A stretch of 64,000 nt of DNA. Source: Dyella jiangningensis (GTDB taxonomy: Bacteria; Pseudomonadota; Gammaproteobacteria; Xanthomonadales; Rhodanobacteraceae). Both the position numbers and the translations under genes were made by a program. Position 1 is the stretch's first letter, and every line of letters begins with the position of its first letter. The notes below the pieces were generated by a model. That model did no database searches, was not told the origin of the DNA, and saw only the letters and a program-made list of their open reading frames with translations. Location of the stretch: assembly GCF_003264855.1 (NCBI RefSeq), contig NZ_NFZS01000004.1, forward strand, positions 558,001 through 622,000, in the 5' to 3' direction. Of this stretch, positions 1 to 56,327 are shown piece by piece.

Positions 1-480
1 CATCACGGAGAGCTGGTCGACCATGCCCACGGCGGTGATCACCGAATCGAGCGAGAACACCGCGTCGAGCGCGACGATCTGCGCGACCACCAGCCAGAAG
101 CGCGCCGGTGCGCGCTTGGCGGCGTCATGGTGGTCGTCTGCCTCAAGCCGCTCGTGCAGCTCCACCGTCGCCTTGAACAGCAGGAAGGCACCACCCAGCA
201 GCAGGATGATGTCGCGCCACGACAATGACAGCGCGCCCCATTCGAGAATGGGCGCGGTGAGCTTCACCAGCCAGGACATCGCCCCCAGCAGGACCAGGCG
301 CATGACCAGCGCCAGCAACAGGCCCAGCACGCGGGCATGGTCGCGCTTCTTGGCCGGCAGCTTGTCGGCGAGGATCGCGATGAAGACGAGGTTGTCGATG
401 CCGAGCACGATCTCCAGCACCACCAGGGTGAGGAGTCCTGCCCACGCAGTAGGGTCGGCCAGCCAATCGAAAGCGAACAT
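1..480 (-). CDS. TerC-family integral membrane protein (3' end outside window)
   Basis: The first 160 residues are visible; the gene runs off the left edge of the window. It opens with a membrane segment carrying [17 protein letters not shown] and later has [18 protein letters not shown]. These paired acidic, Asn/Ser-containing membrane motifs are typical of the TerC/YgdQ/YoaE family, whose members are linked to metal (manganese, tellurite) handling in the inner membrane. Between them lie hydrophobic segments and a charged loop ([12 protein letters not shown]). Because the C-terminus is missing, I cannot tell whether CBS or CorC domains follow, as in YoaE. It is transcribed away from the CPBP gene. 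A TATAGT -10-like hexamer lies at 525-530 on the minus strand, and the leader has an odd Shine-Dalgarno arrangement described separately. Confidence 0.88.
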
Positions 481-5341: not shown

Positions 5342-6409
5342 TCAAGCCAGGCTGGCGCGAGCCTGGGCGTATTCCGCAAGCAAGATCGCGACCAATTCCG
5401 CGGCCGGCATGGCACGGGACAGGCTCGCCGCCTGGCCGCACCACTCGGATACCAGATCGCTCCGGCCCGCAGCGGCCGCGGCCTTGCGCAAGGGCGACGT
5501 GAGCGCGTTCATGACGGGATAGGCGGGGAAAGCCCCTGCCTTCGACTCCATCGCCTCCACGTAGGTATTGCGCCGGCCCCGCGCCGCGCGGCCGGAAAAG
5601 CTGCGAATGGTGGTGACGCGCGTGTCCTCGGTAGTGGGGATGTCCTGCTTCCAGGCGGACGCGGCAGCAGATTCCGGGCAGGCCAGGAATGCGGTGCCCA
5701 GTTGGCTGACGGCCGCACCCAGCATTTCGGCTGCCAGCATGCCCCGCCCGTCCATGATGCCGCCGCCGGCGATCAGGGGCACGTCCACCGCGCGCGCCGC
5801 CAGCCGGATCAGGGCAAACAGCCCGATCATGGCCTCCTCCGGCTCGTGCAGGAAGGTGCCGCGATGGCCGCCTGCCTCCGCACCCTGCAGGCTGATGGCG
5901 TCCACGTCCAGCGCTGCCCAGGCACGCACCTCCGCCAACGAGGTCGCATTGCCGACGACGGCGATATCGCGGCGCTTCAGTTCATCCACCTGCCTCGGCG
6001 TAAGGAGATTGAAGGTGAAGCTCGCCACGGCGGGGCGCGCCTCGCACAGCGCGGCGAACTGATCGGAAAAGCGCGGCGACCAGCGTTCCGGCCGGGTCGT
6101 GCGCGCGGCGAGCCCTTCGTGCTCCATCAGCGCATCCAGCGCGGCGCGCGCATGATCGATGGCGGCTTCATCCGCCTGCACGTCATCCGGCAGCGCGAAC
6201 AGGTTGAGCGCGAACGGACGGTCGGTCGCCGCACGGATCTTTGCCGCATCGTCGAGGATGGCCTGTGGCGCGAGATAACCCACGCCATGCGAACCCAGCC
6301 CACCGGCACGGGACACGGCTGCCACCAGCGCGGGTGTCGAGGCGCCCGACATGGGGGCGAGAACGATCGGCTGGGTGATACCCAGGCGTTGCAGCAGACC
6401 GTGGGGCAT
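5342..6409 (-). CDS. nitronate monooxygenase (2-nitropropane dioxygenase family)
   Basis: A 355-residue FMN-dependent TIM-barrel enzyme. The N-terminal PIVLAPMSGASTPALVAAVSRAGGLG is the flavin-binding opening of the family, and ISLQGAEAGGHRG (around residue 190) and LIAGGGIMDGRG are the later phosphate-binding motifs. Nitronate monooxygenases oxidise alkyl nitronates, including the toxin propionate-3-nitronate, to carbonyl compounds. Some relatives with this fold are enoyl-ACP reductases, but GAEAGGHRG favours the nitronate group. The ATG at 6409 begins MPHGLLQRLGITQPIV, matching the family start; the in-frame upstream extension lacks family features. The gene ends 75 bp before rsfS. Confidence 0.9.
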   Translation of the reverse strand: MPHGLLQRLGITQPIVLAPMSGASTPALVAAVSRAGGLGSHGVGYLAPQAILDDAAKIRAATDRPFALNLFALPDDVQADEAAIDHARAALDALMEHEGLAARTTRPERWSPRFSDQFAALCEARPAVASFTFNLLTPRQVDELKRRDIAVVGNATSLAEVRAWAALDVDAISLQGAEAGGHRGTFLHEPEEAMIGLFALIRLAARAVDVPLIAGGGIMDGRGMLAAEMLGAAVSQLGTAFLACPESAAASAWKQDIPTTEDTRVTTIRSFSGRAARGRRNTYVEAMESKAGAFPAYPVMNALTSPLRKAAAAAGRSDLVSEWCGQAASLSRAMPAAELVAILLAEYAQARASLA

Positions 6410-6470
6410 GACGCGTGCTCCGTCGCGTGGACGATGCGCCATTACACCATGCCCTCATGACCACACGACC

Positions 6471-6502
6471 AAAAAAACAAGGCTCCCGCGGGGGGAGCCT
6501 TG
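6471..6502 (-). terminator. Rho-independent terminator for the heptad-repeat gene
   Basis: A perfect 10-bp inverted repeat (6478-6487 with 6493-6502, arms CAAGGCTCCC / GGGAGCCTTG) has a 5-nt loop and is followed on the minus strand by seven T residues (6471-6477). It lies 19 bp after the stop of the 6522-6860 gene. Confidence 0.93.
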
Positions 6503-6521
6503 CATGGCGATGCAATGGGAA

Positions 6522-6860
6522 TCAGTGACCGCTGGTGGAGGATGACGCCGGCTCGCTGCTCTTCTTGTGCTTCTTGTGGTGCGAGCTGCTCTTGTTGGTG
6601 TCGCTCTTCATCGAATCATTGGCGGACTTCATTTCATCCGCGTTGGATTTCATGGCATCGGAGTTGGACTTCATCGCATCGGAATTCGATTTCATCGCAT
6701 CGGAATTTGACTTCATGGCATCCGAGTTGGACTTCATCGCGTCCTTGCTGGTGTCCTGGGCGGACTGCGGCGACGTGCTCTGCGCCATGACAGGTGACAC
6801 GGCGAAGCCAAGAGCGACGGCAGTGGCGAGGGCGAGTACGGCGTAACGGGAAACTTTCAT
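6522..6860 (-). CDS. secreted heptad-repeat protein (DAMKSNx repeats)
   Basis: A 112-residue protein with a clear Sec signal (MKVSRYAVLALATAVALGF, cleavage near VMAQ). The mature part is low complexity. DAMKSNS recurs every seven residues, degenerating to DEMKSAN and DSMKSDT, and a basic, Ser/His-rich tail (SSSHHKKHKKSSE) follows. No enzyme motif is visible. It resembles the pentapeptide-MXKDX group of small exported proteins by its regular Met-Lys-Asp spacing, but the period is seven. The ATG at 6860 starts the signal peptide; the frame upstream is noncoding in character. A terminator follows. I see no SigF-type promoter before it, unlike its neighbour at 7231. Function unknown. Confidence 0.8.
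   Translation of the reverse strand: MKVSRYAVLALATAVALGFAVSPVMAQSTSPQSAQDTSKDAMKSNSDAMKSNSDAMKSNSDAMKSNSDAMKSNADEMKSANDSMKSDTNKSSSHHKKHKKSSEPASSSTSGH
6643..6747 (-). repeat. five tandem 21-bp coding repeats
   Basis: Five consecutive 21-bp units (6643, 6664, 6685, 6706, 6727) encode the DAMKSNx heptads. They differ at few positions, mostly synonymous (GAT/GAC, GCG/GCA/GCC, TCG/TCC), so recent copying has been followed by silent drift with the protein sequence kept. Confidence 0.85.
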
Positions 6861-7230
6861 GAGTACGTGTCTCCTGAAGCGGTGAGGTAACCGTGCGGCC
6901 GCGCCGCACTTCCATGGAACGGCCGGCACCACTCTTCCAGAGAGGCCCGACGATCCGGCACCGGCTCACGTCGGTTCCGGCCATGCCACATCAGCAGTCC
7001 TGCCCGATGCGAACGATCCATCCCTGGTTCGAGAAGCCATGTCGCCGGGCCAGCCCCTGTCGCACTCGCCCGAAACGGCCTAAAGCCTATACCCATGCCC
7101 GAGGCCGAAATGCGACCTGCCGACACCTTCGTTCAGCGTCAATATCGACAGACCGCACATGTTCAAGCGGGTTTGCTGCGGTGCTCACGCCTCGTGCAAA
7201 GCCGCGTTTTCTTGCGGTGACGCGCCAAGG
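6861..7230. other. intergenic region between the two repeat-protein genes
   Basis: This 370-bp stretch holds the leader of the heptad-repeat gene, including an AGGAG at 6871-6875 (minus strand), 10 nt before the ATG at 6860. I see no convincing ORF, no terminator for the MXKDX gene upstream and no match to GTAACC-N16-CGAA. Confidence 0.5.
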
Positions 7231-7509
7231 TCACTGGCCACCGGACACGCCAGCGGCATGGTCGCCGCCGCCGTCCTTCTTCATGGCGTCGCCGTGGTGC
7301 ATCGCATCACCCTTTTTCATGGCGTCAGGCTTTTTCATGCTGTCGTGTTTCATGCCTGAAGCATCTTTCTTCATCATCATGTCGCCGCTTTTCATCGCGT
7401 CCGGCTTCATGGCGCTGCCGGCGCTCGCCGGTTGCATGGCGTCCTGCGCGGAAGCGATCGACACGCAGGCGAACGAAGCTGCAAGAACCAGCGAAAGCAA
7501 GGTCTTCAT
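7231..7509 (-). CDS. pentapeptide MXKDX-repeat exported protein
   Basis: A 92-residue protein with a Sec signal peptide (MKTLLSLVLAASFACVSIA, cleavage near ASAQ). The mature part repeats Met-x-Lys-x-Asp-like units (AMKPDAMKSGDMMMKKD, MKHDSMKKPDAMKKGDAMHHGDAMKKD) and ends Gly/His-rich. This matches the pentapeptide MXKDX repeat family, small exported proteins often found with DUF1109/NrsF anti-sigma genes. The Met, His and Asp density would suit metal binding or acting as an oxidisable methionine sink, but that is inference. It lies 71 bp downstream of nrsF and has its own perfect SigF-type promoter (7559-7584), so it is a probable regulon member. Confidence 0.85.
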   Translation of the reverse strand: MKTLLSLVLAASFACVSIASAQDAMQPASAGSAMKPDAMKSGDMMMKKDASGMKHDSMKKPDAMKKGDAMHHGDAMKKDGGGDHAAGVSGGQ

Positions 7510-7558
7510 GGGAACTCTCCTGAGAAATGGACGGTGCGGTATTCACCGCATGTCTTCC

Positions 7559-7584
7559 TTCGCTGCGACGGCGAGGAGGGTTAC
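7559..7584 (-). promoter_or_regulatory. SigF-type ECF promoter for the MXKDX-repeat gene
   Basis: On the minus strand GTAACC (7579-7584) is followed after exactly 16 bases by CGAA (7559-7562), a perfect match to the consensus I recall for Caulobacter SigF promoters. The -10 lies about 50 bp before the ATG at 7509. The -35 element overlaps the TAA stop codon of nrsF. Confidence 0.75.
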
Positions 7585-8240
7585 TTCAACGCCGGCTGCA
7601 GCAGGCGACCGCCCATCAACGCATTCGCCAGCACCACGATGCCGACGGCGATGGCGTGGGTGACGAGGTCAGTGGCCGCGACGGCGAAGCCGTGGCAGAT
7701 TTCCAGCAGCGCCGCCGACGCCGCCGCACTGGCAAGCCCGATCATCACCGCCGTCAACACCGGCCGCAGCGGGCAGGCACGGCGCAGCAGCCATACCAGC
7801 AGCGCAGAGAGCGGCAGTGACAGGCTGATGATGAACATCAGGCAGTCGCCGGACTGATGCGCGGTCGCCACCGTCGCTCCCGGCACGACGATGTCGCGCA
7901 GGCACCCCAGACCGCTGGCGCCCACCCATAGCAGGAGGCCAGGCAACGGCAGCCACGCCCATCCGGCGGGCCGCCCGGGAACGCCAAGCGTGAACGCTGC
8001 CCATGCCGCCGACACGGCAGTGATCAGCGCACCGACGCCCGCCACGGCGATGTCGGGCTCCGCCACCCAGCGACGAAGCATGTGCTCGGCACCGTAGTGC
8101 CACAGCAGCGCCAGTGCGATCGCCGCCACCGCCAGCAGCCAGCCGGCCGTGCGCAGCCAGGGCGGCGGCAGGCGCCGCACCGGGGTCAGCTGCACGCCCA
8201 GCGACTGGATCAGTGACTCGGGGAGTCGCGACTCGGACAT
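7581..8240 (-). CDS. nrsF: NrsF-type (DUF1109) membrane anti-sigma factor
   Basis: A 219-residue protein with a short cytosolic N-terminus (MSESRLPESLIQSLGVQLTP) followed by about six hydrophobic segments, the layout of the NrsF/DUF1109 family. NrsF proteins hold their cognate ECF sigma factor at the membrane and release it under metal or oxidative stress; cysteines are important in the Caulobacter protein. Here Cys occurs in LGCLRD, SGDCLM, RRACPL and EICHGF. The gene starts 4 nt after the sigma factor stop, so the two are surely cotranscribed. Identification rests on topology, conserved opening and gene context. Confidence 0.87.
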   Translation of the reverse strand: MSESRLPESLIQSLGVQLTPVRRLPPPWLRTAGWLLAVAAIALALLWHYGAEHMLRRWVAEPDIAVAGVGALITAVSAAWAAFTLGVPGRPAGWAWLPLPGLLLWVGASGLGCLRDIVVPGATVATAHQSGDCLMFIISLSLPLSALLVWLLRRACPLRPVLTAVMIGLASAAASAALLEICHGFAVAATDLVTHAIAVGIVVLANALMGGRLLQPALK

Positions 8241-8244
8241 GTGC

Positions 8245-8823
8245 TCAGGATTCTCCGTGGAAACGGCTGCGCAGCGCCTTCATGGCGCGGTGCAGGTTCA
8301 CTTTCAGCGCCCCCGACTGGCGCCCGGTCTGTGCGGAGGCTTCCGCCAGCGAGCGCTCCTTGAGGCCCAGTTGCTCGACGGCTTCACGCTGTCCCGGCGG
8401 CAACGTCGCGATGGCCTCGTGCAGGCGGCGCACCGCCTGTGCGCGCTCAGTGGCGTCGGCGGCATCGTGCTCGTCGGGGTGCAGGTCGTAGGCGCGCTCG
8501 TCATGCAGTTCGCGATGCCCCCGTCGTCCCTGGCTACGCAGCGCGTCGATGGCGCGGCGCGCGGCGATGGCCGACAGCCATGCGTCGTACGAACGGCTCG
8601 GATCGTAGGTATGGCGCACGCGATGCACGGTGAGCAGGGTTTCCTGCACCACATCGTCCGCCAGATCCGCATCGACGCCCTGGCGCCGCGCCGCGCTACG
8701 GATCAGCGGCACCGACTCGGCGAGCACACGCTCGTAGGCCTGCCGGTCGCCGCCCTGCGCCGCCGCCATCCAGGCCGCCCGCCGCCGCTCCGGCACATCG
8801 GTGGCGCTTTCAGCGTCGCTCAC
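8245..8823 (-). CDS. ECF sigma factor (SigF-like, paired with NrsF)
   Basis: An RNA polymerase sigma factor with region 2 around DADLADDVVQETLLTVHRVRHTYDP-type sequence (DDVVQETLL, then SYDAWLSAIAARRAIDALR) and region 4 around LPPGQREAVEQLGLKERSLAEASAQTG ending in HRAMKALR. It lacks regions 1 and 3, as ECF factors do. The start is uncertain. GTG at 8823 puts 18 residues before the conserved AWMAAAQ and is preferred by homologue layout; ATG at 8871 or 8901 is possible, and none has a good Shine-Dalgarno. The promoter at 8930-8955 rules out a start at 8961. The gene is followed by nrsF after 4 nt. Confidence 0.88.
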   Translation of the reverse strand: MSDAESATDVPERRRAAWMAAAQGGDRQAYERVLAESVPLIRSAARRQGVDADLADDVVQETLLTVHRVRHTYDPSRSYDAWLSAIAARRAIDALRSQGRRGHRELHDERAYDLHPDEHDAADATERAQAVRRLHEAIATLPPGQREAVEQLGLKERSLAEASAQTGRQSGALKVNLHRAMKALRSRFHGES

Positions 8824-8929
8824 GGCAAAGTCGGTCCCAGCCCAGACAGGAAGGACGCTATCTAGAACCATCGAACGGGTAGCGGTCAAGGCGGCGCTCA
8901 TGAAAAGGGGTCGGGTGGCCTCTGGGTTA

Positions 8930-8955
8930 TTCGGCGCCCTCGCCGTTTTTGTTAC
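8930..8955 (-). promoter_or_regulatory. SigF-type ECF promoter for the sigma-nrsF operon
   Basis: On the minus strand GTAACA (8950-8955) and CGAA (8930-8933) are separated by exactly 16 bases, differing from GTAACC-N16-CGAA at one base. It precedes every plausible start of the sigma gene, implying positive autoregulation. Confidence 0.68.
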
Positions 8956-9039
8956 CTCCACCGCAGGTTATCGCGGCTGCCCCACGATGTTTCAGAAACG
9001 TCTCATGGGACGGACGGAGCGCGATTGGCCTAATGCGGC

Positions 9040-9055
9040 GCCCGCTTCGGCGGGC
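9040..9055 (+). other. UUCG tetraloop hairpin in the outer-membrane protein leader
   Basis: GCCCGC-TTCG-GCGGGC forms a perfect 6-bp stem with an extra-stable UUCG loop, 24 bp before the ATG at 9080. No T-run follows, so it is more likely to be an mRNA-stabilising leader structure than a terminator. Confidence 0.5.
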
Positions 9056-9079
9056 CTACCCCACCGCAAGGAACGCTCC

Positions 9080-9730
9080 ATGAAAAAGATCCTGCTGGCC
9101 CTGGCATTCGCCGCGGTCTCCATCCCGGTCGCGTCTCAGGCGAGCCAGAGCAACGGCATCAGCTACAACTACGTGCAGCTCGACTACGCCAATATCAGCC
9201 AGTCGGGCCATGACTTCGTCGCCGATGGCGGCATCCTTTCCGGCTCCTACAGCTTCGCCGATCACTACCAGGTGTTCGGCAGCTACAGCGACCTGCGCTC
9301 GGACACCGATCGGTACCCGCTCGGCTTCGATAATTACACCTACACCACGAAGAGCACCGACAAGCCCTGGACGCTCGGCGTCGGCTATTTCACTGCCCTG
9401 AGCGACCGCGCCGACTGGGTCACCCAGCTGTCCTACACGCGCGACCGCTACACGCATCGCGTGTGCCTGGACGACTACGGGTGCGACCGATTCCACAACC
9501 GCTTCAACATGTGGTCGGTCAATACCGGCGTGATGGGCCATATCACCGACAAGCTCATCGGCAATGCCTATATCGGCTACAGCAATGGCGGCAAGGGCGT
9601 GATGGGCAACGTCTTCGGCGATTTCGGCCTGATGTATGCCTTCAACACGACCTGGGCAGTCGAAGGCGGCGTGCGCCTGGACAACAACAGCGCGGAAACC
9701 TTCACCCTGGGCGTCCGCGCCAGCTTCTGA
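9080..9730 (+). CDS. small outer-membrane beta-barrel protein
   Basis: A 216-residue protein with a signal peptide (MKKILLALAFAAVSIPVASQ, cleavage near SQAS). The mature part consists of alternating hydrophobic/polar strands with many aromatic residues (YNYVQLDYANIS, YQVFGSYSDL, WTLGVGYFTAL, WVTQLSYTRDRY) and ends with a terminal phenylalanine (LGVRASF), as beta-barrel proteins recognised by the BAM complex do. The family resembles OmpA-like/porin-like barrels of xanthomonads, but I cannot name it. RBS-like AAGGAA precedes the ATG at 9080. It is divergent from the sigma factor gene and has its own strong terminator. Two cysteines (CLDDYGC) could form a loop disulfide. Confidence 0.85.
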   Translation: MKKILLALAFAAVSIPVASQASQSNGISYNYVQLDYANISQSGHDFVADGGILSGSYSFADHYQVFGSYSDLRSDTDRYPLGFDNYTYTTKSTDKPWTLGVGYFTALSDRADWVTQLSYTRDRYTHRVCLDDYGCDRFHNRFNMWSVNTGVMGHITDKLIGNAYIGYSNGGKGVMGNVFGDFGLMYAFNTTWAVEGGVRLDNNSAETFTLGVRASF

Positions 9731-9753
9731 TCCACCTGGCGCATTCGAAACCG

Positions 9754-9780
9754 AGCCCGGCACACGCCGGGCTTTTTTTT
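9754..9780 (+). terminator. Rho-independent terminator of the outer-membrane protein gene
   Basis: A perfect 8-bp stem AGCCCGGC / GCCGGGCT (9754-9761 with 9766-9773) has the loop ACAC and is followed by eight T residues ending at 9780. Confidence 0.95.
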
Positions 9781-9858
9781 CGCGCGGGCATGACAGGCGG
9801 CCACACCGGGAGGATGCTGCAGCAGAGGGCTGGCGCCGTTTTGCCAGCGTGGCGACCT

Positions 9859-9884
9859 GTAACCGCCGGGCCACGCCCGGCGAA
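9859..9884 (+). promoter_or_regulatory. SigF-type ECF promoter for dipZ-msrB
   Basis: GTAACC (9859-9864) and CGAA (9881-9884) are separated by exactly 16 bases, a perfect match to the SigF-type consensus. The -10 lies 33 bp before the dipZ ATG, leaving a short leader. It is downstream of the strong terminator at 9780, so dipZ needs a promoter here. Confidence 0.77.
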
Positions 9885-9917
9885 TACGTTCATGACTCCC
9901 TGACGGATGCTGCCCGC

Positions 9918-11639
9918 ATGCTTGTGCTGATCCTGGCTTACCTAGGTGGTGTGCTGACCATTCTCAGCCCATGCATCCTGCCGGTGCTGCCGTTCGTGTT
10001 TGCCCGGGCCGATCGCCCCTTCGCGCGCAATGGCCTGCCGATGTTGCTGGGCATGGCGCTCACCTTCGCCCTGGTGGCCACGCTGGCGGCGGTCGGCGGC
10101 GGCTGGGCGATCCGCGCCAACCAATATGGCCGCATCGTCGCCATGATCGTGCTGGCGGTGCTGGGCCTGACCTTGCTGTCGAGCCATCTGGCCGAATGGA
10201 TCAGCCGGCCGTTCGTGGCGCTGGGCAACAAGCTGACCCAGCGCTCGGATGCCGAGGGCGATTCGGCATGGTCCGCCGCCGGGCTGGGTGTGGCTACCGG
10301 CCTGCTCTGGGCGCCATGTGCGGGTCCGATCCTCGGCCTGTTGCTCACGGGTGCGGCGCTCAACGGCGCCAGCGTGCAGACCACGCTGCTGCTGCTCACC
10401 TATGCGGCCGGTGCGGCCACATCGTTGGCATTGGCACTCGCCGTCGGCGGTCGTGTGTTCGCATTGATGAAGCGTTCGCTGGGTGCGGGTGAATGGGTGC
10501 GACGCGCGCTGGGCGCGTTGGTGCTCGTCGGCGTCGCGGCGATCGCGCTGGGCGTCGATACCGGCCTGCTGACCCGCGTGTCGCTTGCGAGCACCGGCGG
10601 CATCGAACAGAAGCTGATCGATGCGGTGCGCCCTGCACCGGCACCGCAACCCGTGGCGAAAGCGGGCGAACCGCTGCCGGTCGAAGGCGAGCTGCCTTCG
10701 CTGGCCGGCGCCACGCAATGGATCAACAGCGTGCCGCTCACCGCCCAGTCCTTGCGCGGCAAGGTGGTGCTGGTCGATTTCTGGACCTATTCCTGCATCA
10801 ACTGCATCCGCTCGTTGCCCTACGTGCGCGGCTGGGCCGACAAGTACAAGGACCACGGCCTCGTCGTGATCGGCGTGCACGCGCCGGAGTTCGCCTTCGA
10901 GAAGGAGCCGCAGAACGTCATCAAGGCGGTGAAGGATCTCGGTGTCGACTACCCGGTGGCGCTCGACAACGACTACGCGATATGGAAAGGCTTCAGCAAC
11001 GAATACTGGCCCGCGCATTACTTCATCGACGCCCAGGGACGCATCCGTCATCACCATTTTGGCGAAGGCGAGTACGACCAGAGCGAGGACGTGATCCGTC
11101 AACTGCTCACCGAAGCGGGCCAGAAAAACCTCCCCGGAGGCTACGTGCAAGCCGGCGCGCAGGGCGCGGAAGCGGCCGGCTCGGGCGATGCGCAGCGTTC
11201 GCCGGAAACCTACGTCGGCTATGCGCGCGCCGAGAACTTCGCCAGTGGCCAGGTGGCGCACGATGACGCGTGGAACTACCACGCACCCGCCACGCTCATG
11301 GCCAACCAGTGGGCGCTCGACGGTCATTGGACCGTGCGCGAAGAAAGCGCGCGGCTGGACAGCGCCAACGGCCGCATCGTCTATCGCTTCCGCGGACGCG
11401 ACCTGCACCTGGTGCTGGGTCCCTCGTCGGATGGAAAACCCGTGCGATTCCGCGTGACCATCGACGGCAAGGCCCCGTCTGCGGACCACGGCATGGACAC
11501 CGACGCCGACGGCAACGGCACCGTGACCTCGCAACGCCTGTACCAGCTGGTGCGCCAGGCCGGCGGTACGGGTGAACGCACCTTCGAAATCACCTTCCTC
11601 GATCCGGGCGTGCAGGCCTACGCCTTTACGTTCGGCTGA
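9918..11639 (+). CDS. dipZ: DipZ-type fusion: CcdA/DsbD membrane domain + thioredoxin-like + C-terminal domain
   Basis: A 573-residue protein in three parts. Residues 1-250 are a CcdA/DsbD-like membrane domain with its paired cysteines in LSPCILPVLPF and LLWAPCAGPILG. Residues 250-430 are a periplasmic redoxin domain with CxxC in WTYSCINCIRSLPY (about residue 291). Residues 430-573 form the beta-rich DipZ C-terminal domain. Such proteins carry electrons from cytosolic thioredoxin across the inner membrane to periplasmic thiol targets. The ATG at 9918 starts the first membrane segment; the longer frame upstream is not coding. The downstream gene msrB begins 28 bp later, so the likely client is the exported methionine sulfoxide reductase. 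A SigF-type promoter precedes it. Confidence 0.93.
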   Translation: MLVLILAYLGGVLTILSPCILPVLPFVFARADRPFARNGLPMLLGMALTFALVATLAAVGGGWAIRANQYGRIVAMIVLAVLGLTLLSSHLAEWISRPFVALGNKLTQRSDAEGDSAWSAAGLGVATGLLWAPCAGPILGLLLTGAALNGASVQTTLLLLTYAAGAATSLALALAVGGRVFALMKRSLGAGEWVRRALGALVLVGVAAIALGVDTGLLTRVSLASTGGIEQKLIDAVRPAPAPQPVAKAGEPLPVEGELPSLAGATQWINSVPLTAQSLRGKVVLVDFWTYSCINCIRSLPYVRGWADKYKDHGLVVIGVHAPEFAFEKEPQNVIKAVKDLGVDYPVALDNDYAIWKGFSNEYWPAHYFIDAQGRIRHHHFGEGEYDQSEDVIRQLLTEAGQKNLPGGYVQAGAQGAEAAGSGDAQRSPETYVGYARAENFASGQVAHDDAWNYHAPATLMANQWALDGHWTVREESARLDSANGRIVYRFRGRDLHLVLGPSSDGKPVRFRVTIDGKAPSADHGMDTDADGNGTVTSQRLYQLVRQAGGTGERTFEITFLDPGVQAYAFTFG

Positions 11640-11667
11640 TCCACGCCACCGCGTGATGGAGGCAACC

Positions 11668-12288
11668 ATGTCTCGCACCAAGGACATCGTGATGATGGAA
11701 CGCCGCCGCTTCCTGCGCGCGGCACTCGCCGGCGGCGTCATGGCCGCGGCGGGCACATGGCTGTTGCCCGGCTTTCTCAGGCGCGGCGTGTCATCGGGAG
11801 AGGCCATGGCCGCGACGCCTGCGGCGTCAGGCGAGGATATGTTGCTCGAGTGCTTTGCCGACGATGGCCGGCATCTCGGCTCCTGCCATGTGCGCAAGCT
11901 CGTCCTCAACGATGCACAATGGCATCAGCGGCTTTCCGATGATGCGTATTACGTGATGCGTCGCGAAGGCACCGAGCGCGCTTTCAGCGGGCAGCACGAG
12001 AAGCCATCAGTACCCGGCCTCTATCGATGCCCTGCCTGTGACACGGCCTTGTTCGACGCCGCCACGCAGTTCGACTCCGGCACGGGATGGCCGAGCTTCT
12101 GGCAGCCGATCGCCAAGAAGAACGTCATCGAAAAACGCGACCGCAGCTTTGGCTGGGAACGCATGGCCGTGAGCTGCGCCGGTTGTGACAGCCATCTCGG
12201 GCATGTGTTCGATGATGGCCCGCCGCCGACCGGGTTGCGTTACTGCATGAACTCGGTGGCATTGCGGTTCGTGCCACGCACGTCGTGA
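11668..12288 (+). CDS. msrB: Tat-exported peptide-methionine (R)-S-oxide reductase MsrB
   Basis: A 206-residue MsrB with an N-terminal twin-arginine signal (ERRRFLRAALAGG, then a hydrophobic stretch to about residue 35). The catalytic domain has the two zinc CxxC pairs (CPACD, CAGCD), GWPSFW, and the catalytic cysteine in RYCMNSVALRF (about residue 192). It reduces methionine-R-sulfoxide in proteins, here on the periplasmic side. GGAGG 6 nt before the ATG at 11668 sets the start; two further Met codons follow before the Arg motif. It forms a bicistron with dipZ, the likely electron source. Normal cytosolic MsrB lacks the leader. Confidence 0.95.
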   Translation: MSRTKDIVMMERRRFLRAALAGGVMAAAGTWLLPGFLRRGVSSGEAMAATPAASGEDMLLECFADDGRHLGSCHVRKLVLNDAQWHQRLSDDAYYVMRREGTERAFSGQHEKPSVPGLYRCPACDTALFDAATQFDSGTGWPSFWQPIAKKNVIEKRDRSFGWERMAVSCAGCDSHLGHVFDDGPPPTGLRYCMNSVALRFVPRTS

Positions 12289-12303
12289 GGCCGCGCGCGC
12301 TTT

Positions 12304-12386
12304 TGTAGGAGCGCACCCAGTGCGCGAAAAGCCTACGGAGCGGAGACGTTGCAGTTCTGCGGTCGCGCACTGGGTGCGCTCCTACA
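12304..12386. repeat. REP-like palindromic repeat, family A (complete pair)
   Basis: Two perfect 24-bp inverted arms (12304-12327 and 12363-12386), reading TGTAGGAGCGCACCCAGTGC... and its complement, flank a 35-bp spacer. Each arm has its own core GCGCAC-CCA-GTGCGC. It sits between the convergent msrB and nadD genes and could act as a bidirectional terminator. Relatives lie at 17698, 30588 and 37028. Confidence 0.88.
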
Positions 12387-12400
12387 GACGAAGAAAGAGC

Positions 12401-54902: not shown

Positions 54903-56327
54903 TCAGCCCTTGGCGCCCTGCGCGTAGTGGCGCGCCACCACGTCCGCCACCACCATCGACACCTTCTTGCCGGTCGGAATGTGCAGGAATTCGTTCGGAC
55001 CATGCGCGTTCGAGTGCGGGCCGAGCACACCGGTGATGAGGAACTGCGCCTTCGGGAACTTCTCGCCCAACATGCCCATGAACGGAATGCTGCCACCTTC
55101 GCCCATGTACGCCGCCGGCGCCCCGAAGTAGGTCTGCGACGCGCTGGCCACGGCATCCTCAAGCCACGGCGAGAGCTGCGGCGCGTTCCAGCCGCTGCCA
55201 TCCTTCTCCAGCTTGAAGGTGACCTTGGCGCCGTACGGCGGATCCTTCTCCAGCAGTTGCTTGACGAACTGGCCAGCCTTGGCGCCCGACAGCGTCGGCG
55301 GTACGCGCAGGCTGAGCTTCACCGCGGTCTTGGGGCGCAATACGTTGCCGGCGCTTTCCAGCGGCGGCAGGCCATCGGCGCCGGTCACGGCGAGCTGCGG
55401 ACGCCAGGTGCGGTTGAGCACCAGCTCGGTGAGGTCTTCGGTGACCGGCTTCATGCCCTCGACGAACGGAAACTTGTCGTACACCGCCGTGCCCAGCACG
55501 TCGGCCGACTTCTTCGCCTGCTCGATGCGCTGCGTCGGAATATCGACGTAGAGCTCCTTGGGCTTGATCGTGCCGGTCTGTGGGTCTTCCAGGCGGCTCA
55601 GCAGCTCGCGCAGGATGCGGAAGCTCGAGGGCACCACACCGGAGGCGTCGCCCGAATGCACGCCCTCCTCCAATACCTGCACGGTGAGTTCGCCGCCGGT
55701 CATGCCACGCAGCGAGGTGGTGAGCCACAGCTGGTCGTAGTTGCCGCAGCCGGAATCGAGGCACACCACCAGCGACGGATTGCCGATGCGGTCGGCCAGG
55801 TGATCGACGTAGAACGGCAGGTCATAGCTGCCCGATTCCTCGCAGGTTTCGATCAGCACCACGCAGCGCGCGTGCGGAATACCCTGCTCGTGGAGCGCCA
55901 GCAGCGCGGCCAGCGAACCGAAAATGGCGTAGCCGTCGTCGGCACCGCCGCGGCCGTAGAGCTTGTCGCCCTTCAGCACCGGCGTCCACGGGCCGAGGCC
56001 TTCGGCCCAGCCGGTCATTTCCGGCTGCTTGTCGAGGTGGCCATACAGCACGACGGTGTCGTCGCCCGTGCCTGGCACTTCGATGTAGATGAGCGGCGTG
56101 CGGCCTTCCAGGCGCACGACTTCGAGCGTCGCGCCGGGCAGCGACGGCAGCTTGCTGCGCGCCCAGGTCTCCATCAGCTTCACCGCGGCGTCCATGTAGC
56201 CGTGTTCCACCCACTTGGGATCGAACATCGGCGACTTGTTGGGGATGCGGATGTACTCCACCAGCTGCGGCACGATCTCGTCATCCCACAGTCCGCTGAT
56301 GAAACGGTTGAGGCGAGCGGTATCCAT
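54903..56327 (-). CDS. M20-family dipeptidase (CNDP/carnosinase-like)
   Basis: A 474-residue zinc peptidase. Metal ligands are in VVLYGHLDKQPE (His and Asp), YGRGGADDGYAIFG, CEESGS (Glu pair, with catalytic acid) and LDSGCGNYDQ, and the C-terminal His is in GPHSNAHGPNEF. The lid domain lies between about residues 210 and 330. This is the M20 dipeptidase group related to CNDP and PepV. It cleaves dipeptides in the cytoplasm; no signal peptide is present. AGGAG about 8 nt before the ATG at 56327 excludes the longer in-frame extension. Confidence 0.94.
   Translation of the reverse strand: MDTARLNRFISGLWDDEIVPQLVEYIRIPNKSPMFDPKWVEHGYMDAAVKLMETWARSKLPSLPGATLEVVRLEGRTPLIYIEVPGTGDDTVVLYGHLDKQPEMTGWAEGLGPWTPVLKGDKLYGRGGADDGYAIFGSLAALLALHEQGIPHARCVVLIETCEESGSYDLPFYVDHLADRIGNPSLVVCLDSGCGNYDQLWLTTSLRGMTGGELTVQVLEEGVHSGDASGVVPSSFRILRELLSRLEDPQTGTIKPKELYVDIPTQRIEQAKKSADVLGTAVYDKFPFVEGMKPVTEDLTELVLNRTWRPQLAVTGADGLPPLESAGNVLRPKTAVKLSLRVPPTLSGAKAGQFVKQLLEKDPPYGAKVTFKLEKDGSGWNAPQLSPWLEDAVASASQTYFGAPAAYMGEGGSIPFMGMLGEKFPKAQFLITGVLGPHSNAHGPNEFLHIPTGKKVSMVVADVVARHYAQGAKG

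Follow-up and report, generated by a model that had tools for sequence, protein, structure and literature searches.

The stretch analysed here, 64,000 nucleotides of the contig NZ_NFZS01000004.1 of the soil bacterium Dyella jiangningensis (positions 558,001 to 622,000, forward strand; hereafter called the window), carries genes for an extracytoplasmic function (ECF) sigma factor and an NrsF-family membrane anti-sigma factor, together with genes for a methionine-rich peptide, a putative DsbD-type electron carrier and a methionine sulfoxide reductase (Msr). The genes, their domains, the promoter elements in front of them and the conservation of these elements are read directly from the genomes, and they make it probable that an ECF16-type SigF/NrsF regulon for the envelope's oxidant response and repair is controlled from this locus in Dyella. 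Since the promoter element is conserved before the genes for the sigma factor, the carrier, an exported MsrA and a catalase-family protein, and also precedes the genome's own dsbD, the regulon is, on this sequence evidence, real, larger than the window and directed at methionine sulfoxide and thiol repair in the envelope.

The SigF/NrsF locus

The main features of the locus are as follows.

8930..8955, minus strand: SigF-type promoter of the sigma-nrsF operon, GTAACA-N16-CGAA, with one mismatch to GTAACC (motif scan)
8245..8901, minus strand: SigF-like ECF sigma factor, 218 residues (Sigma70_r2 and Sigma70_r4_2 domains)
7581..8240, minus strand: NrsF-family membrane anti-sigma factor, 219 residues (PF06532, E 1.2e-18)
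7559..7584, minus strand: SigF-type promoter of the methionine-rich gene, GTAACC-N16-CGAA, exact match
7231..7509, minus strand: MXKDX-like peptide rich in methionine and lysine, 92 residues with 12 methionines (composition; TIGR02953)
9859..9884, plus strand: SigF-type promoter of dipZ-msrB, GTAACC-N16-CGAA, exact match
9918..11639, plus strand: DipZ, 573 residues, with a DsbD-type membrane core (PF02683), a thioredoxin domain with the motif CINC (PF08534/PF00578) and a Thioredoxin_10 C-terminus (PF17991)
11668..12288, plus strand: MsrB, 206 residues (PF01641; TIGR00357 above its cut-off), with a twin-arginine-like leader, judged by eye

The two exact copies of the element and the one-mismatch copy before the sigma gene had been pointed out in an earlier note on this DNA, and our motif scan recovers them all. 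The distances of 30–110 base pairs to the start codons given there are roughly right: 49, 28 and 33 base pairs separate the last base of the −10 element from the start codons of the methionine-rich gene, the sigma gene (ATG at 8901) and dipZ, respectively, the sigma gene falling just below that range. The note had named the consensus as that of Caulobacter SigF, and the same consensus is printed in PMC3511200; the ECF16 group consensus is tGTAACc-N16-CGAA (PMC3420878). The proposed pairing also holds, as the ECF sigma factor (regions 2 and 4) and the NrsF/DUF1109 protein share one operon, the arrangement of the ECF16 type. The sigma factor is 52% identical over 164 residues to a Methylobacterium sigma factor whose gene adjoins an NrsF gene. 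In addition, the TAA stop codon of nrsF (7583-7581) sits inside the −35 element of the methionine-rich gene's promoter, and this element is therefore partly constrained twice.

The putative electron carrier, which we take to be DipZ, a name borne by no library match, holds the DsbD-type core, the CxxC thioredoxin domain and the Thioredoxin_10 C-terminus in a single chain. Its cysteines are residues 19 and 134 (single, in the membrane core) and 293 and 296 (the CINC motif). The methionine-rich peptide scores 35.9 bits against TIGR02953, the pentapeptide MXKDX repeat family, below the cut-off of 41, and is therefore termed MXKDX-like; its start resembles a signal peptide by eye, so that its export is putative. 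The oxidant-defence outputs behind SigF-type promoters include this putatively exported peptide and Msr enzymes, namely MsrB behind dipZ in the window and the exported MsrA elsewhere in the genome. A scan for sigma-70 promoters over 6400-12400 found none.

Conservation across the Rhodanobacteraceae

This kind of NrsF is present in all 20 Dyella genomes (the window's own included), in 9 of 17 genomes from other genera of the same family (one of them remote) and in 1 of 24 genomes from other families of the order. Among 14 control genomes, only Caulobacter vibrioides has a PF06532 match. We followed the element in a set of 29 loci around these NrsF genes and in a set of 80 Rhodanobacteraceae loci, the latter being the best 80 of 155 matched loci and drawn partly from the same genomes. 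GTAACN-N16-CGAA lies before the sigma gene in 27 of the 29 loci, both misses carrying a remote NrsF, and in all 79 examinable loci of the larger set (one is incomplete). In that larger set, the element precedes dipZ in 70 of 72 loci at N16, and in the remaining two as GTAACC-N15-CGAA. Where dipZ was not found, the element stands directly before msrB in six of six loci (four perfect, two with one mismatch); neither dipZ nor msrB was found in two loci of the set. Permuted hexamers match in a mean of 0.00-0.02 loci, with a maximum of 2, and the motif columns are 95-98% alike, as against 42-45% for the spacers.

The methionine-rich gene follows the same pattern. Among the 79 loci assessed, one of the 80 being incomplete here, a site with no or one mismatch follows nrsF in 18 of the 19 loci with a methionine-rich open reading frame there and in 2 of the 60 without it; two of the loci without the reading frame have fewer than 350 bases in this place. 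The single miss among the 19 (L253) shows only the second, MXKDX2-type gene. The shared promoter element that the earlier note proposed for the sigma operon, the methionine-rich gene and dipZ-msrB is borne out, and it is conserved in the family.

At the sixth base of the −35 element, 48 of the 79 sigma promoters have C, 24 have G, 6 have T and one has A. The same base is C in 63 of the 70 dipZ promoters, and the putative autoregulatory promoter is thus more often off-consensus than the target promoter.

Further genes with the element

Where else does the genome carry the element? Half of its ten perfect sites precede the methionine-rich gene, dipZ-msrB, the DsbD gene and both msrA genes found in the genome. 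The other five precede genes for DoxX, an exported peroxiredoxin (152 base pairs from its site), a small exported open reading frame that comes after DUF692-DUF2063 genes, a small membrane gene and a lactonase-like gene. The seven places that match the reversed pattern, our null set, all overlap mechanically called open reading frames, and none immediately precedes a panel gene; DoxX lies about 430 base pairs beyond one of them.

The exported msrA, whose leader is lipobox-like by eye, has a perfect site in all 14 Dyella loci read (loci were recovered for 14 of the 20 genomes) and in all 10 diverse NrsF-bearing genomes, so that each of the 23 distinct genomes has it. Among family genomes that lack a close NrsF, none of the eight nearest homologues of the exported MsrA has a site (no or one mismatch, within 350 base pairs); seven of these genomes have no NrsF match at all, and one has a remote NrsF. 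A DipZ match spanning both halves is likewise absent from nine family genomes without a close NrsF, although in G025, which has a remote pair, a 27% identical DsbD-core stretch adjoins the pair and counts against the absence of DipZ there. Since both the exported-msrA sites and DipZ are missing where no close NrsF exists, the elements follow the SigF/NrsF pair.

The catalase-family gene (PF00199) has the element in all 20 Dyella genomes, at N16 in 15 and at N15 in 5, the window's own genome belonging to the N15 group; one N16 and one N15 copy read GTAACT. The DsbD gene has the element in the window's own genome, G006 and G019. The element before msrQP is present in G002 and G022 and absent in G008 and the own genome. 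In G002 (L346), two perfect elements are arranged divergently, at 299-324 (minus strand) and 364-389 (plus strand); one points to a lactonase-like gene, homologous to that in the own genome (L005), and the other to msrQ-msrP. DsbD-core or CcdA genes also occur near NrsF or sigma genes in distant loci (L334 3127-11903 on a Burkholderia contaminans plasmid, L080 and L340), which suggests a recurrent link.

Cysteines of NrsF

Published NrsF-type proteins have a conserved cysteine pair, at 131/181 in Caulobacter and at 129/179 in OsrA and AbcS. The window's NrsF has cysteines at 113, 133, 156 and 182, of which C133 and C182 have a similar spacing and, by position and spacing, may correspond to the published sensor cysteines. 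C133 is invariant, and C182 occurs in 12 of 14 family rows and in one of five rows of a wider alignment.

Proposed mechanism

In the following model, we infer the dependence of the promoters on this sigma factor, the signal, the localisation of the proteins, the electron route and the role of the peptide as a sink.

Sigma release: NrsF would retain the sigma factor at the membrane until an oxidant in the envelope, most probably reactive chlorine or another compound that oxidises methionine and cysteine, acts on NrsF. The sigma factor freed in this way would then transcribe its own operon, the gene for the exported methionine-rich peptide and dipZ-msrB from GTAACC-N15/16-CGAA. Further targets would be the exported msrA, the catalase-family gene and dsbD.

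Repair: The cysteines 19 and 134 together with the CINC motif would enable DipZ to pass electrons from cytosolic thioredoxin to the exported MsrB and MsrA. DipZ, backed by DsbD, may thus move thioredoxin electrons across the membrane to these periplasmic enzymes, which would repair methionine sulfoxide in envelope proteins and probably also in the methionine-rich peptide. The peptide would then be a rechargeable oxidant sink. By analogy to BcrX and MrpX, both proposed to be repairable sinks of this kind (PMC8315932), this role is likely.

A broader scheme, to which we give even chances, is a thiol-driven SigF/NrsF methionine cycle. In this scheme, the methionine-rich peptide and the envelope proteins form an oxidisable pool, which the exported MsrA and MsrB recharge with cytosolic thioredoxin electrons delivered by the one-piece DipZ, with DsbD as a backup, and the catalase-family enzyme stands under the same switch. 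The cycle would replace the quinone-driven MsrPQ cycle. Gain or loss of a single 10-base promoter element would let lineages of the Rhodanobacteraceae change from one electron source to the other or combine both, and recruit or shed other repair genes.

Comparison with known systems

The earlier note regarded the grouping as undescribed, and this does not stand: SigF/NrsF-type pairs with MXKDX or methionine-rich peptides and Msr enzymes are already published (PMC8315932, PMC3420878, PMC4623255). The window belongs to a known kind, because the systems of Bradyrhizobium, Brucella, Azospira and Methylobacterium already join the pair to Msr or methionine-rich outputs.

Bradyrhizobium japonicum EcfF-OsrA is an ECF16 pair with an NrsF-family anti-sigma factor and an autoregulated GTAAC-type promoter, and its regulon contains three Msr proteins (MsrA/MsrB), the DsbD-core protein Bll1027, the membrane-anchored thioredoxin Bll1026 and several small hypothetical proteins; its authors propose that Bll1027 and Bll1026 feed periplasmic Msr (PMC3420878). 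Unlike Dyella, this organism is an Alphaproteobacterium, its promoter is GTAAC(g,a)-N14-15-(c,t)CG(t,a), and the core and the thioredoxin are two proteins, whereas the DipZ of Dyella is one (PMC3420878). In Brucella melitensis, the ECF16 pair BcrS-AbcS with bcrXQP has an Msr output, is induced by hypochlorous acid (HOCl), and has GTAACC-N16-CGAA before both the sigma gene and the gene for a methionine-rich MXKDX peptide; its Msr arm is, however, MsrPQ-like (BcrQP), with no DipZ-MsrB, and type IV secretion is also affected (PMC8315932). Azospira suillum SigF-NrsF-YedYZ-MrpX likewise combines the pair with a periplasmic methionine-rich peptide cycled by a methionine sulfoxide reductase, but uses the molybdenum enzyme YedYZ in place of DipZ-MsrB (PMC4623255, PMC8315932); some related islands carry exported msrA and msrB beside mrpX and yedYZ (PMC4623255).

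Caulobacter crescentus SigF-NrsF shares the pair, the promoter consensus, and YedY and DoxX genes in the regulon; in contrast, its main targets are DUF2282-DUF692-DUF2063 operons, it responds to chromium and cadmium, and no change of msrA was seen (PMC3511200). There, sigF is reported not to be strongly autoregulated under metal stress (PMC3511200). In Haemophilus influenzae, the ECF sigma factor RpoE2 has both periplasmic MsrAB and a DoxX-like operon under its control in the presence of HOCl, but its anti-sigma factor HrsE is a 67-residue cytoplasmic protein, not an NrsF (PMC7907618). On a Methylobacterium plasmid (NZ_CP099614; L332 4915-9489), one block holds MXKDX, sigma (52%), NrsF (53%), MsrB and MsrA genes, with perfect motifs before MXKDX and msrB; it differs in adding MsrQ and MsrP and in having no DipZ annotated there. 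M. bullatum has a similar block without MsrA. The Methylobacterium pair (52-53%) is closer to the Dyella pair than is the remote pair from another family of the same order (L079, NrsF 38-39%).

Particular to the Rhodanobacteraceae version are the fused DipZ with MsrB, the catalase-family and DsbD outputs and the conservation in this family; it also has the exported MsrA, and the methionine-rich peptide is optional. The open-licence literature searched contains no description of this version, or of dipZ-msrB with a sigma factor. The locus offers a promoter-level regulon for envelope methionine sulfoxide repair that is directly testable. If the model is correct, a single kind of SigF/NrsF switch has two alternative outputs, a thiol route (DipZ with MsrA/MsrB) and a molybdenum route (MsrPQ), a view suggested by the union of MsrA, MsrB and MsrPQ in the Methylobacterium block, and the rewiring of the regulon could be read from single promoter elements over dozens of genomes.

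Alternative explanations

Several observations weigh against the regulon as we describe it. The frequency check suggested in the earlier note, run over the whole genome (4.76 Mb), does not make the motif stand out: it yields 10 perfect matches, compared with 7 for the reversed pattern, and 21 compared with 20 for the GTAACN version. Raw motif counting was therefore rejected as a means of identifying the regulon; the motif is more than chance because it is conserved across genomes, not because of its raw frequency. The compared genomes are related rather than independent, and the window's own sigma promoter (GTAACA) deviates from GTAACC. One MXKDX1-like gene, in D. jiangningensis (L053/L246), has no site, and C182 of NrsF is missing in 2 of the 14 family rows and in the other four of the wider alignment. 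The genome's own msrQP operon (C1:2341348) lacks an upstream element. For the cytosolic msrA, no more than 7 of 16 Dyella loci show a site (six perfect, one with one mismatch), which would make it at most a lineage-specific target. The sites before DoxX (L008), the peroxiredoxin (L010) and the small exported open reading frame (L003) do not recur in the 10 genomes scanned. Among these genomes, the site before the small membrane gene (L009) recurs only in G019, where the spacer is nearly identical as well, so that this recurrence is uninformative; that before the lactonase-like gene recurs in G002. These five candidate targets are unproven.

Could the three matches in the window be a coincidence in GC-rich DNA? 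With up to one mismatch allowed, 4 matches are observed in the window (the further one is GTGACC at 55441-55466) where 1.53 are expected, and 6 of 100 shuffles reach 4, which is weak by itself and, like the genome-wide count that equals the reversed control within error, speaks for chance. We nevertheless regard coincidence as hardly credible, in view of the near-universal conservation at fixed spacing, with diverged spacers, and the near-total failure of permuted hexamers to match; for the sigma and dipZ promoters, this footprint already refutes it.

A partial role of the pair is a rather unlikely but weightier alternative, in which a second ECF sigma factor shares or owns the real ECF promoters and SigF/NrsF controls only part of the set. 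The family does contain other ECF genes with the same element: in G029 and G030 (L181 and L178), which have no match to this NrsF, it precedes DUF692/DUF2063 operons beside other ECF sigma genes, and these loci would form a separate metal-peptide branch that uses the same promoter code. In Caulobacter, a second regulator is reported to act on the sigF promoter (PMC3511200), and the off-consensus sigma promoter of the window would also fit. The site-free homologues of the exported MsrA and the lack of a two-half DipZ match in genomes without a close NrsF argue for the pair itself.

The DUF692/DUF2063 operons of G029 and G030 favour, in addition, a mainly heavy-metal or copper response like that of Caulobacter SigF, with its chromium and cadmium signals and DUF2282-DUF692-DUF2063-DoxX operons (PMC3511200); the MXKDX-like peptide would then bind metal, and Msr and DipZ would handle secondary thiol damage. 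Perfect sites also occur in the window's own genome close to a DUF692-DUF2063 pair and in front of DoxX. However, this pair is located on the upstream side of its site rather than the downstream side, the targets that are conserved are those for MsrA, MsrB, DipZ and the catalase-family protein, and the nearest relatives among published systems with Msr outputs react to HOCl or H2O2 (PMC8315932, PMC3420878). We therefore consider the metal response improbable, a little more so than a second sigma factor.

Neighbouring features

Two further genes at the locus have no SigF-type element on their 5′ side and are left out of the regulon.

9080-9730: Ax21/OmpO-like gene, between the minus-strand and plus-strand groups
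6522-6860, minus strand: second MXKDX-like gene

The peptide of the second MXKDX-like gene has a regular 7-residue repeat of DAMKSNS units at a 21-nucleotide spacing, and the gene is kept beside the locus in most Dyella loci examined. On the 3′ side of msrB, two 'tgtaggagcgcacccagtgcgc'-like units in inverted orientation (12305-12386) resemble an intergenic palindromic repeat.

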